A stretch of DNA of 64,000 bases, taken from NCBI RefSeq assembly GCF_021228795.1, contig NZ_CP089309.1, positions 1,984,001 to 2,048,000 on the forward strand, given 5' to 3'. Below the pieces are notes generated by a model. It was not told the origin of the DNA. It searched no databases and saw nothing but the letters and a program-made list of their open reading frames with translations. Shown in pieces: positions 57,265-61,645 of the stretch. A program made the position numbers and the translations under genes. This stretch comes from Thiocapsa bogorovii (GTDB lineage: Bacteria; Pseudomonadota; Gammaproteobacteria; Chromatiales; Chromatiaceae). Every line of letters begins with the position of its first letter. The first letter of the stretch is position 1.

Positions 57265-58635
57265 CTAACGCTCTCCTTCGGCGCACAGCGCCTCGACGAC
57301 CTGCTCCATCCGCGCGGAGCGGGAGCCCTTGACCAGGATACGGTCATCTGAGGACATCTCGGTCCGAAGCGCACGCACGAGATCCCCCTGGTCGGTAAAG
57401 TGGCGTGCGCCGTCGCCGAAGGCAGACGTCGCCGACGCGCTCAGGATGCCCACGCTGAAAAGACGATCGACGCCGGCCTCACGCGCGATCTCGCCGATTT
57501 GACGATGCAGGGCGTCGGCCTCGGAGCCCAGCTCGGCGAGGTCGCCCAAGACCAACCAACGCCTGCCCGACAGTCCCGCGAGGACCTGGATCGCCGCGGC
57601 GATCGAATCCGGATTGGCGTTGTAGGTGTCGTCGATCACGCCTGCCGCACCACATTGACGGGGACAGAGACGGCCCTTCACGGGCGTCAGCGTCGCGAGG
57701 CCCGCCTGGATCGCGCTCGGCTCGATCCCGAGCGCCAGCGCCGTCGCAGCGGCGGCCAAGGCATTGCGGGCGTTGTGCTCGCCGGCTAGACGCAGGGCGA
57801 TCGGGACCGCCTTTCCGTCGTGATGGGCAACGACATGAGTGCTGAAACCCGCCTCGTTCCACTCGACCCGGATCGCCGAGCGATCCGCCCGGAGATCCGC
57901 CCGGAGATCTTCAGGACCCTCCAGCCCGAACGTCAGGGTGCGGCGATCGGCCGCCAGTCCGTGCCAGAGAGCGGCGTACGGGGAATCGCCGGCGAAGACG
58001 AACACTCCGTGGCTCGGCAGGCCGCGGGCGATCTCGCCTTTTGCATGGGCAACGCCGTCGACACTGCCGAAACCCTCCAGGTGAGCGCGCCCGGCATTCG
58101 TGATGAGGGCGACATCCGGACGGGCGATGTCGGTCATGTAACCGATTTCGCCGTGGTGGTTGGCCCCCATTTCCAAAACGAGAAAGTCCTCGTCGCGGGC
58201 ACTCAAGAGGGTCAAGGGCATCCCGATATCGTTGTTCAGATTACCGCGGGTCGCGCGGACGCTACCGACCTGACCGAGGATGGCGGCGACCATCTCCTTG
58301 ACCGTGGTCTTGCCGTTGCTCCCCGTGATGGCGACGACTCGACCGGCGAAGCGGTCGCGCCAAGCCGCCGCGAGGGCCCCGAGCCCGGCGCGGGTATCCT
58401 GAACGATCCACTGCGGAAGGTCCACGGAGAGCGGGTGATCGACCATCGCAGCGACGGCACCCGCGGCACGGGCGGCGGCGACATGGTCATGCCCGTCGAA
58501 ACGCTCGCCGCGCAGCGCGACAAAGAGCTGGCCGCTGCAATCGGCACGGCTGTCGGTGCCGACCGAGGCGAAGTGACGATCCTCGCCTTCGAGACGACCA
58601 CCGGCGCGAGCAACAGCTTCCGAGAGAGACCACAT
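57265..58635 (-). CDS. murF: UDP-MurNAc-tripeptide--D-Ala-D-Ala ligase
   Basis: 456 residues from ATG 58635 (GTG 58638 also possible); GGAGG about 10 nt upstream sits inside the murE-like gene end and sets the start. Full three-domain MurF: N-terminal TDSRADCSGQLFVALRGERFDGHDHV, ATP loop TGSNGKTTVKEM, NLNNDIGMPLTLL, EMGANHHGEI, AHAKGEI with the carbamylated lysine, and DDTYNANPDS. A 12-bp direct duplication (about 57885-57909) encodes LRADLRAD. It accepts tripeptide, so an active MurE must exist somewhere. Confidence 0.97.
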   Translation of the reverse strand: MWSLSEAVARAGGRLEGEDRHFASVGTDSRADCSGQLFVALRGERFDGHDHVAAARAAGAVAAMVDHPLSVDLPQWIVQDTRAGLGALAAAWRDRFAGRVVAITGSNGKTTVKEMVAAILGQVGSVRATRGNLNNDIGMPLTLLSARDEDFLVLEMGANHHGEIGYMTDIARPDVALITNAGRAHLEGFGSVDGVAHAKGEIARGLPSHGVFVFAGDSPYAALWHGLAADRRTLTFGLEGPEDLRADLRADRSAIRVEWNEAGFSTHVVAHHDGKAVPIALRLAGEHNARNALAAAATALALGIEPSAIQAGLATLTPVKGRLCPRQCGAAGVIDDTYNANPDSIAAAIQVLAGLSGRRWLVLGDLAELGSEADALHRQIGEIAREAGVDRLFSVGILSASATSAFGDGARHFTDQGDLVRALRTEMSSDDRILVKGSRSARMEQVVEALCAEGER

Positions 58636-59879
58636 CACCGACGACCCTCCTTCCATTCCCGTAATGCCTCGACGACTTGGGCGCGGTCGCTGAAGCGCAC
58701 CTTGAGCTCGCCCATCTCTTGGATCGTCTCGTGACCTTTACCGGCCACCAGCACGGCATCACCGATGCCCGCCAGGGTGATCGCAGTGCGGATCGCGAGG
58801 GCGCGCCGGCGTCTCACCCGTACGCGCCCCGGATCGACAACGCCGGCGAGGATATCGGCGAGGATGGTCTCGCCGCACTCCCCGCGCGGATTATCGTCGG
58901 TGAGGATCAGCTCGTCGCTCAGACGCTCGGCAATCGCCCCCATGACGGGGCGACTGTCGCGGTCGCGTTCGCCGGCGCAGCCGAAGACCGTGAAGATGCG
59001 CCGTGGACCATGTCGGCGCAGATTCACGAGCGCCGTCTCGAGTGCGGCCGGTGTCCGGGCCTCGTCGACGACGATCAGCGGTGTTTGCGCGTCGCCGAAA
59101 CATTCCATGCGGCCGGGCACGCCCTGGATCAGGCTCAACTCCCTCGCAGCGCGCTCGAGCGGAAGACCGCGCGCGAGCAACACGGCCAAGACGGCCAGAA
59201 GATTGTTCGCATTGAAGGCACCGATCAGACCGACAGCGAAATCCGCCTCGGTATGGGCATCGCGCGTCTCACAGGCGACGCACAACCGCAGACCCCTCGG
59301 CATCGGCGCGATCTCTCGGGCACGAAGCCGGATATCGCATGCGCGCAGGACGTCGTCATCGGGGAGCGCCGCGTTCCGCTCCACTAAGAAACCCGCCACA
59401 GCGACACCCGTCGGCAGTGCATCCAGGATGGTCTTCGAAAAAGGATCGCTCAGATTCAGGACGGCCCACTTCAGATCGGGAGACCCGAAGAGACGCAGGA
59501 CAGCGTCGGCGCGATCCGAAGACGCGCCCCTATCGCTCGGATCGGCTCCATCCATTCCGGTGAAGAGCACATGCGTGAAGTGAAGGTCCTCCGCCCGGGA
59601 GCACGCGAGCGCCTCGAAGGGGACCTCGATGGCAACGGCCCGGGCACCGCGCAGACAGAGCCCCTCGAGCGTCGCACATAGGCCGCGAGCGGCGGGGTCG
59701 CCCGTCGTCTTGAGGTCGCCGGGAAACCCGTGACCGACGGTGGCGATGACGCCGCAAGGCATTTCTACGGCCAAAACCTGCGCCAGAGCGTGGGCAACGC
59801 TGGTCTTCCCCCGCGCCCCAATGACGCCGAAGGTCTCCGGGCGGGCGTTCGGCGAGCCCAAGAGGCGATCCGCCATCAT
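58635..59879 (-). CDS. MurE-like protein lacking N-terminal domain and catalytic motifs
   Basis: 414 residues from ATG 59879, overlapping the ftsI stop as ATGA; MurE is normally about 490-500. It occupies the murE position but starts only about 20 residues before the ATP loop, so the UDP-binding N-terminal domain is absent; the frame upstream lies in ftsI and does not encode it. Motif changes compared with E. coli MurE: GTNGKTT is GARGKTS, EVSSHGL is EVPFEAL, NLSRDHLDYHG is TGMDGADPSDRG, the carbamylated lysine in the EAAKWLLY helix is lost (DRADAVLRLF), and DYAHTPDAL is DEARTPAAL. Kept are VFGCAGERDRDSRP, the diaminopimelate motif DDNPR, PGRME and AGKGHE. Probably catalytically dead or altered; a binding or regulatory role is speculation. 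Confidence 0.85.
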   Translation of the reverse strand: MMADRLLGSPNARPETFGVIGARGKTSVAHALAQVLAVEMPCGVIATVGHGFPGDLKTTGDPAARGLCATLEGLCLRGARAVAIEVPFEALACSRAEDLHFTHVLFTGMDGADPSDRGASSDRADAVLRLFGSPDLKWAVLNLSDPFSKTILDALPTGVAVAGFLVERNAALPDDDVLRACDIRLRAREIAPMPRGLRLCVACETRDAHTEADFAVGLIGAFNANNLLAVLAVLLARGLPLERAARELSLIQGVPGRMECFGDAQTPLIVVDEARTPAALETALVNLRRHGPRRIFTVFGCAGERDRDSRPVMGAIAERLSDELILTDDNPRGECGETILADILAGVVDPGRVRVRRRRALAIRTAITLAGIGDAVLVAGKGHETIQEMGELKVRFSDRAQVVEALREWKEGRR

Positions 59880-61645
59880 GGCTGGGCCTCGCGTCGGGCA
59901 AGCAACATCGAGGGTTGCGGGTCGTCCGGAGGGACATTGAACAGTCGCAAAGCGCCTTCCATCACTTTCTGGAAGACGGGCGCGGCCACGAGTCCACCGT
60001 AGTAAGCCTTGCCCTTCGGTTCGTCGATCATCACCGCGATCACCAAGCGCGGCGAGCCCGCGGGGGCGAAGCCCGCAAACACGGCCTGATAGCGCCCGCC
60101 GCCGTAGCCGGCGCGACCTGACGATTTCTTGGCCGTCCCGGTCTTGCCGGCGACCCGATATCCGGTGATGGCTGCGCGTTTCGCGGTGCCTTGATCGGAA
60201 ACGACCGTTTCCATCATCGCCCTTACCTTGCGCGCCGTTTCGGCGCTCAGGACGCGGGTTTCCTCGCCCGCACGCGCAGGGGAGGCGGGATCCTGTCTCA
60301 TGAGTGTCACCGGACGCTTGATGCCGTCCGCGGCCAACACTCCATAGGCTTGAGCCAGTTGCAACGCCGTGACCGACAAGCCGTAGCCGAAGGCCTGGGT
60401 GGCATGTTCGAAGACGCGCCATGTCGAATGATGCCGCAGCACGCCTCGGCTCTCGCCCGGCACGCCGACATCGGTCGCGTGGCCGAAGCCGAGCTGATCG
60501 TAAAGACCCCAAAGATCGCCGTAGCTCATCATCTGGGCGATCTTCACGATGCCGACGTTGCTCGATTTGGTGATCACGCCGGTCACGCTGAGGTTGCCGT
60601 AGTTGCGCACGTCCTTGACGGTATTGCGCCCGACCGACAACACCCCGCCCCGCGTCGCGATCGTCGTCTTCGGCGTGATCAAGCCCCGCTCCAGCGCGGC
60701 GGCCACGACAAACGGCTTGATCGTCGAACCCGGCTCCATGACGTCGGTCACCGCACGATTGCGACGACGCTCGCTGCTGCCGCCGCGCTGTGCGTTCGGG
60801 TTGTAGCCCGGCTGGTTGACCATCGCAAGGATCTCGCCGGTCTCCACATCCAGAGCCACCAACGTGCCGCCGACCGCCTTGTGCTCGGCAACGGCGGCCT
60901 TGAGCTCGCGGTAGGCGAGGAACTGAAGGCGACGGTCGAGACTGAGCGCGATATCCGCGCCCTGGCGCGGCGCGCGGACCTGTTCGATCTCCTGAACGAT
61001 CTGCTGTCGACCGTCGCGAATGACCCGACGCAGCCCGGGTTCGGATTTGAGCCAGGAATCGTAGGTCAGCTCGATACCCTCCTGGCCCTTGTCGTCGATA
61101 TCGGTGAATCCGAGGACGTGCCCGAAGACCTCGACACCCGGATAGAAGCGGCGATACTCGGTCTCGAAGTCCACGCCGACGAGATCGTGGTCGGCGATGA
61201 CTTGGCGCACCGCGCGCGCTTCCTCGAAGCTGACACGCCGCTTGAGATAGAGAAACCCACGCTCGGCGGTGGCATCGAGCCGTTCCTGCAGCGCGTTCGG
61301 TTCGAGCCCCAGTGCCCTGGCCAACGGCGGGATCGCGTCGCGTCGCTCGACCAGCTTGCGCGGCTCGCCCCAGACCGTCTCCACTGGTGTGCTCACCGCC
61401 AGCGGCTCGCCGTTGCGGTCGGTGATCATGCCACGGCGCGCTGCGATCTCGCCCACACGCAGATAACGACGCTCGCCTTCACTGCGCAGATAGTCGGTCT
61501 CGACGACCTGGCGATAGAAGACCGCAACCGAGAGCACGACAAAGGCGCTCGACAGGACACCGACCAACAGGCGGCGACGCAGCGCGAGATTCGGCTTGGC
61601 GCGCCTCGGCTCCGGACGTCGGGCACGACGGTTACGGGTAGACAC
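59876..61645 (-). CDS. ftsI: Septal transpeptidase FtsI (PBP3)
   Basis: 589 residues. One N-terminal TM (LLVGVLSSAFVVLSVAVFY), non-catalytic domain (RGMITDRNGEPLAVS), and a class B transpeptidase domain with SxxK in GSTIKPFVVA, SxN in KSSNVGI and KTGTAKK. It cross-links septal peptidoglycan together with FtsW. It overlaps ftsL by 14 bp and the murE-like gene by 4 bp. Confidence 0.98.
   Translation of the reverse strand: MSTRNRRARRPEPRRAKPNLALRRRLLVGVLSSAFVVLSVAVFYRQVVETDYLRSEGERRYLRVGEIAARRGMITDRNGEPLAVSTPVETVWGEPRKLVERRDAIPPLARALGLEPNALQERLDATAERGFLYLKRRVSFEEARAVRQVIADHDLVGVDFETEYRRFYPGVEVFGHVLGFTDIDDKGQEGIELTYDSWLKSEPGLRRVIRDGRQQIVQEIEQVRAPRQGADIALSLDRRLQFLAYRELKAAVAEHKAVGGTLVALDVETGEILAMVNQPGYNPNAQRGGSSERRRNRAVTDVMEPGSTIKPFVVAAALERGLITPKTTIATRGGVLSVGRNTVKDVRNYGNLSVTGVITKSSNVGIVKIAQMMSYGDLWGLYDQLGFGHATDVGVPGESRGVLRHHSTWRVFEHATQAFGYGLSVTALQLAQAYGVLAADGIKRPVTLMRQDPASPARAGEETRVLSAETARKVRAMMETVVSDQGTAKRAAITGYRVAGKTGTAKKSSGRAGYGGGRYQAVFAGFAPAGSPRLVIAVMIDEPKGKAYYGGLVAAPVFQKVMEGALRLFNVPPDDPQPSMLLARREAQP

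Follow-up and report, generated by a model that had tools for sequence, protein, structure and literature searches.

The murE position of the dcw cluster in Thiocapsa bogorovii is occupied by a gene whose product looks degenerate, raising the questions of which protein performs the MurE step in this organism and why the gene is still in its place. MurE is essential, usually single-copy, and normally encoded in the dcw cluster. We followed up a sequence-only reading of the window, the 64,000-nucleotide stretch of DNA analyzed here, which had proposed a pseudoenzyme with a binding or scaffolding role. The overall reading that we favor, and consider probable, is that a displaced native MurE is retained as a noncatalytic pseudoenzyme. 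The native murE position between ftsI and murF is called the slot below, and the second MurE found in the genome is called alt.

The slot protein and a second MurE in the same genome

The slot protein (P0001; 58635..59879, minus strand) is a native murE orthologue of 414 residues, and its translation contains no internal stops. MurE models are its best family matches, with TIGR01085 giving 265.8 bits against a cut-off of 257.3. This match begins only at profile position 73 of 472, indicating that the N-terminal UDP-MurNAc-binding domain of a functional MurE ligase is missing, and Pfam finds Mur_ligase_M and Mur_ligase_C and nothing else. The loss looks as if about 107 codons had been deleted in frame, joining MMA to DR. 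The deletion junction, formed by the first three codons (59871..59879, minus strand), is common to six genomes of the genus, among them the one containing the window, and reads MMV in one of the six. Since all six carry the same truncation, a sequencing error or assembly artefact hiding an intact gene, which the sequence-only reading had kept in view, is ruled out.

In alignments, the relic P-loop (residues 21 to 27; 59799..59819, minus strand) reads GARGKTS where MurE has GTNGKTS, with the Asn gone and G..GKT retained. VPFE replaces VSSH, DHLDYH is absent from its stretch, Val stands at the position of the carbamylated Lys, and DEARTP replaces DYAHTP, so that the four catalytic positions are R23 (Asn), E89 (SSH His), V127 (Lys), and R275 (DYAHTP His). 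PGRME, DDNPR, and GKGHE are all retained, with the DNPR meso-DAP motif at residues 329 to 332 (58884..58895, minus strand) and GKGHE at residues 380 to 384 (58728..58742, minus strand). The length, the missing domain, and this pattern of lost and kept motifs had all been read from the sequence before and hold up on the alignments. Judged by these residues, the slot protein is almost certainly catalytically dead.

The upstream neighbor is ftsI (59876..61645, minus strand), and its stop overlaps the slot start by exactly 4 bp (59876..59879, minus strand). The downstream neighbor is murF (57265..58635, minus strand), with an ATG start at 58635 and possible starts at 58638 (GTG) and 58656 (ATG), so that its overlap with the slot gene is 1, 4, or 22 bp. 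The 4-bp overlaps claimed for both sides are therefore certain on the ftsI side and depend on the chosen start on the murF side. By eye, the end of the slot gene's tail holds AAGGAGG, a ribosome-binding-like sequence for murF. MurC, MurD, and MurF of the cluster, which had been called intact, have normal P-loops by eye.

The genome containing the window is a single contig of 5.65 Mb and 99.99% complete, and the Mur_ligase_M search of it finds seven places, being MurF, MurC, MurD, the slot protein, Mpl (L005, from a family search), a FolC-like protein (L007, by eye), and alt. The last is a motif-intact MurE of 479 residues at about 671.9 to 673.3 kb of contig C1, 1.4 Mb from the slot, which matches TIGR01085 with 283.4 bits (cut-off, 257.3) and has TGTNGKT, SSH, DHLDYH, the Lys, DFAHTP, SDNPR, and GKGHE. 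The proposal that the real MurE lies elsewhere in the genome is thus confirmed, and the possibility that there is no other MurE is ruled out. The alt protein would make UDP-MurNAc-tripeptide. Mpl acts in recycling and not in de novo synthesis, and it need not be invoked as the sole supplier of tripeptide.

Pfam finds no N-terminal domain on alt, and its middle domain is some 30 to 40 residues shorter. Thiocapsa marina 5811 (L066) has an alt that is 93% identical to the one in the window's genome. In G066, the alt (L048, 6087-7847) carries an extra stretch inserted in the shortened middle domain. The neighbors of alt were considered as a functional clue and set aside; purL adjoins alt in 3 of 21 loci, all from the window's genus, and was not found beside it in the other 18 loci examined, some of which are short.

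Distribution and origin of the second MurE

The N-terminal 112 residues of alt, used as the query, match 64 of 210 genomes of the family Chromatiaceae. The same query among 369 genomes of the class, and an alt profile at E 1e-92 among 398 genomes of the phylum, matched the own genome alone; remote copies could be missed by these searches because they are single-sequence and sampled. A first alt search of genome contigs was unspecific, with 80 loci kept and one of them close, but pointed to Thiocapsa marina and to Bacteriovoracales.

In the Bacteriovoracales locus (L067), the dcw slot itself is filled by an alt-type MurE, with 32 to 35% identity to the Chromatiaceae alts, and no second MurE was found in that genome. 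At E 1e-30, the profile matches 273 of 290 sampled Bdellovibrionota genomes, of which 93 have alt-type scores of 350 to 699 bits, with the next score at 302 (rows counted). Most of the alt-type matches cover nearly the whole model and a few start only from about position 85, and the missing Pfam N-terminal domain and short middle domain are seen in these alt-type proteins and in the sole dcw MurE of L067 as well. Among these 93 loci, the 30 best were checked, and the gene lies between ftsI and murF in every one of the 30. The Bdellovibrionota as a whole show two MurE score classes, the alt type and a lower-scoring standard-like type comprising most others, with a gap from 302 to 351 bits.

We built a tree of 88 MurEs (29 of the 64 Chromatiaceae alts, 21 of the 30 fetched Bdellovibrionota proteins, 6 of 21 slot proteins, and 32 canonical MurEs); the MurE trees were made by a quick method, and the values given are SH-aLRT support only. 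The Chromatiaceae alts form one clade (100) and the Bdellovibrionota alt-type proteins another (97), and both are joined and set apart from all other MurEs (100). The slot proteins group with a Chromatiaceae MurE (96). The newcomer therefore stands with a distant lineage and the native copy with its own, and the sequences make xenologous displacement of MurE in a Chromatiaceae clade of purple sulfur bacteria very probable. Because alt occupies the dcw position in Bdellovibrionota, the transfer is read as running from that side. The Chromatiaceae alt is sister to the Bdellovibrionota set and not nested inside it, and no direct donor was found in the MurE trees. The ancestor of the Chromatiaceae clade would have gained a second MurE belonging to the type that one Bdellovibrionota clade carries as its native enzyme, and displacement by this Bdellovibrionota-type MurE, which the sequence-only reading had not considered, is the likely cause of the decay of the slot gene.

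A tree of MurF and FtsI from 76 genomes places six alt-less genomes with intact MurE (G019, G015, G038, G032, G044, and G021) inside the alt-bearer group (100). This group holds 58 alt-bearers; g38 genomes are represented by FtsI alone, and G019 has a long branch. The presence of alt changes at least six times on this tree, and the nesting suggests, from sequence, reciprocal loss, in which some descendants would have retained the native MurE and others the newcomer. The alternative is that alt was passed within the clade by transfer rather than lost. In a second MurE tree, the intact MurEs of G038, G015, G032, and G044 sit amid the slot proteins, arguing that catalysis was lost more than once.

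Decay, constraint, and deletion of the slot gene

A slot/canonical profile finds a further MurE-type gene beyond alt in 22 of the 64 alt-bearers; in the other 42, some of which are drafts, there is no slot-type MurE at E 1e-30, leaving alt as the sole MurE, and G575 has the alt-type MurE only. The further MurE of G529 (270 bits) was dropped as foreign-looking and not located between ftsI and murF, leaving 21 slot proteins. This protein (G529:C404:7332-8840; L208) is a MurE-like ligase with TGTDGKT, DYAHTP, and DNYW, and its genome carries alt as well.

None of the 21 slot MurEs of alt-bearing genomes has the intact motif set, whereas all 40 MurEs examined in alt-less genomes have it (2 with GKS; 30 were top-scoring and 10 others were picked by hand). 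No genome with both MurEs intact was found among those examined, which fits the prediction from redundancy; wherever the newcomer is present, the native dcw copy either lacks the catalytic motif set or is gone. Fifteen of the slot proteins are full-length and the six of the window's genus are without the N-terminal domain, a domain that the native copy in the window's genome would have lost as a further step by in-frame deletion.

The motif loss among the slot proteins is a graded decay. At the catalytic positions, the P-loop Asn (position 23) is kept in 2 of 21, the SSH His in 5, the Lys in 6, and the DYAHTP His in 6. The ligand site is far better preserved, with G21, G24, and K25 of the P-loop (G..GK) in all 21 and T26 in 20, N330 and P331 of DNPR in 21 and R332 in 19, G380 and E384 of GKG.E in 21 and H383 in 12, and the Glu of (A)ME in 18. 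The slot columns of the E. coli DAP contacts, which we take to be R389, N414, R416, G464, and E468, were located through the 1E8C alignment; the R389 column has Arg in 14 of 21 and has lost it in 7. The C-terminal recognition that had been described as retained thus stands for DNPR and GKG.E and fails in part for this Arg.

Could the slot protein still be an enzyme, with altered chemistry or another substrate? The universal G..GK, the (A)ME Glu, and a largely present DAP pocket would allow it, as would the five g38 slots, which retain SSH and most of DHLDYH while having lost the P-loop Asn and the GKGHE His. Catalytic death is less certain for these g38 slots, as more of the active site remains. 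Against this, the Lys, SSH His, and P-loop Asn are missing from most slots, and the window's slot protein is without its N-terminal substrate domain, making a surviving enzyme highly improbable.

Selection on the slot gene was estimated with codon models. For the six truncated genomes of the genus, omega is 0.158 (lnL of -4250.1 versus -4475.0 at omega 1), and it is 0.107 for the five g38 slots, 0.157 for three g23 slots, and 0.159 for G049, G449, and G031; all four groups (17 of the 21 slots) are far from omega 1, with 2dlnL of 344 to 884. Pairwise omega within the genus, from a simpler method, is 0.18 to 0.31. The neighboring genes and alt served as controls in the window's genus only, where the six genomes give 0.098 for MurF, 0.065 for alt, and 0.048 for FtsI. 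Because the six truncated genomes share GARGKT and DEARTP, the constraint on the slot postdates the loss of catalysis. The comparison of relatives proposed in the sequence-only reading therefore gives what a pseudoenzyme predicts, a loss conserved in the genus and a remnant under purifying selection.

By region, omega in the six genomes is 0.175, 0.215, 0.104 (C domain), and 0.043 (tail), the C-terminal tail (residues 386 to 414; 58638..58724, minus strand) being the most constrained part. Tail identity is 0.81 among slot proteins versus 0.44 in 27 canonical MurEs, these being 30 filtered for intact motifs. A newly gained interface was considered for the tail and dropped, as the intact MurEs of G038, G015, G032, and G044 have it; going by these sequences, the conserved tail is ancestral in this clade's MurE.

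The slot gene is absent from the dcw cluster in 43 alt-bearers, and 37 ftsI-murF junctions are readable; the six others are G443 and G444 (no ftsI in the locus) and G491, G531, G537, and G538 (no MurF hit). In the 37, ftsI and murF are adjacent, either overlapping or separated by 2 to 295 nt. G498, which falls within the truncated genomes, has a 27-residue ORF in which the first 8 codons of the slot are fused to its last 19, and in G524 a recognizable murE fragment persists at the slot. The presence of the slot changes at least seven times on a smaller tree, with ten separate deleted groups by eye, and the slot gene is dispensable because it was lost in about 9 to 10 lineages, including G498. 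Repeated deletion and graded motif loss, together with the G524 fragment and the G498 scar, are what would be left by a functionless pseudogene that has been decaying slowly and passively since the replacement. Yet neither a disabled frame nor an omega near 1 was found; there are no internal stops in any of the 21 slot genes, and omega is 0.11 to 0.16, which for the genus describes a period when the ancestor shared by the six truncated genomes had already given up catalysis. Passive decay is accordingly improbable.

The junctions bear on a further possibility, that the slot protein is functionless and its frame is kept open by the coupled stops and starts of ftsI, slot, and murF, shrinking in frame until a direct overlap is reached. 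All 21 slot ORFs have an in-frame start at -4, and each of the 15 slot loci with murF downstream has a murF start at -1 or -4. A direct 4-bp ftsI/murF overlap is found in 16 of the 37 junctions and a bridging small ORF (at least 20 residues, lenient limits), such as that of G498, in 8, but 13 have a gap and neither. With strict limits, 5 of 14 junctions are bridged versus about 0.9 expected from shuffles (summed rates), although this control is rough, with fixed flanks and with G066 and G018 left out, and the bridging cases amount to only about four independent events. Furthermore, an open frame alone would not push omega down to 0.1 to 0.16, and three g38 genomes have mraY, not murF, after the slot while g38 omega is still 0.107. 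We consider a purely translational relay doubtful as the whole explanation, and ftsI-slot-murF coupling may instead be a second reason why the frame stays open.

MurF itself varies in these genomes. In the g38 genomes G534, G532, and G539 (L305 5830-6116, L306, and L307), a degenerate murE is followed by mraY and murF is not in the dcw cluster, and a MurF search at E 1e-60 has no hit in the genus-mates G531, G537, and G538; murF may be displaced as well in g38 genomes. G491 (g26, one contig, 99% complete) gives no match to the window's MurF at E 1e-60, and other g26 members have one. In G066, a 618-residue frame (L308, 3109-4962) combines, by eye, a distant second MurF-like ligase with a peptidyl-tRNA hydrolase-like domain.

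We return to the retained pseudoenzyme. Retention of the slot for a protein-level function is likely, and a specific scaffold or ligand-sensing role is put forward more tentatively from the sequence pattern. As the P-loop is kept and the meso-DAP pocket largely so, the slot protein most likely binds ligand, and its C-terminal domain would dock to a partner in the Mur ligase complex, MurF and MurG being the obvious candidates. A more speculative version, which we regard as rather unlikely, is a dead-ligase precursor sensor, in which, after a MurE of the kind seen in predatory bacteria had assumed catalysis, an ATP- and meso-DAP-binding slot protein sitting on MurF or MurG would match synthesis to supply, with translation running from ftsI to murF through the slot. 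Several points weigh against a pseudoenzyme role. Part of the constraint could come from misfolding avoidance, and with its UDP-binding domain gone, the truncated slot protein is not expected to bind the nucleotide substrate in full. Some 9 to 10 lineages do without the gene and its conserved tail is ancestral, and the losses of the R389 equivalent (7 of 21) and of the DNPR Arg (2 of 21) touch the proposed ligand site.

Comparison with known MurE proteins and replacements

Compared with MurE (UDP-MurNAc-L-Ala-D-Glu:meso-DAP ligase; TIGR01085; E. coli structure 1E8C), the slot protein is orthologous by tree and operon position and shares the middle and C-terminal domains, DNPR, and GKG.E, but it is without the N-terminal domain and the catalytic Asn, His, and Lys.

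In xenologous displacement of essential genes, a foreign homologue takes over and the native copy decays. Here, unlike in the usual case, the native MurE persists in the operon, constrained and noncatalytic, and reciprocal losses are likely within one family. This family shows the course of a replacement, from an ancestor in which both copies are implied, through loss of either one and catalytic death, to domain loss, a 27-residue ORF, and clean deletion. The dead slot under purifying selection separates catalytic from noncatalytic roles of a Mur ligase in the operon and offers a direct way to test whether Mur ligases act as a complex. A further caution is that a gene annotated as murE in the dcw slot need not encode the working enzyme. 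No published account of this MurE displacement or retained slot was found in the literature searched, which consisted largely of papers open without subscription.

The plant protein PAP11 is a MurE homologue in the plastid RNA polymerase with a non-peptidoglycan role, for which one study reports cross-links (PMC9456514), and its DNPR motif is, according to another, retained in most seed plants (PMC9434261). Entries named PAP11 are among the PDB matches to the slot MurE search. PAP11 differs from the slot protein in belonging to a plastid transcription complex, in its large extensions, in a profile match that reaches into the N-terminal domain, and in having no displacement by a xenologue, and by analogy it may serve only as a precedent for the repurposing of MurE.

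For the Bordetella MurE-MurF fusion, a study describes a fitted model in which the MurE C-terminus adjoins the MurF N-terminus, and binding of the fusion to MurG (PMC6420597). This placement makes docking through the slot protein's C-terminus plausible. The Bordetella MurE and MurF are fused and, in that study, described as bifunctional (PMC6420597), whereas the slot MurE is, by its residues, dead and is encoded as a separate protein.
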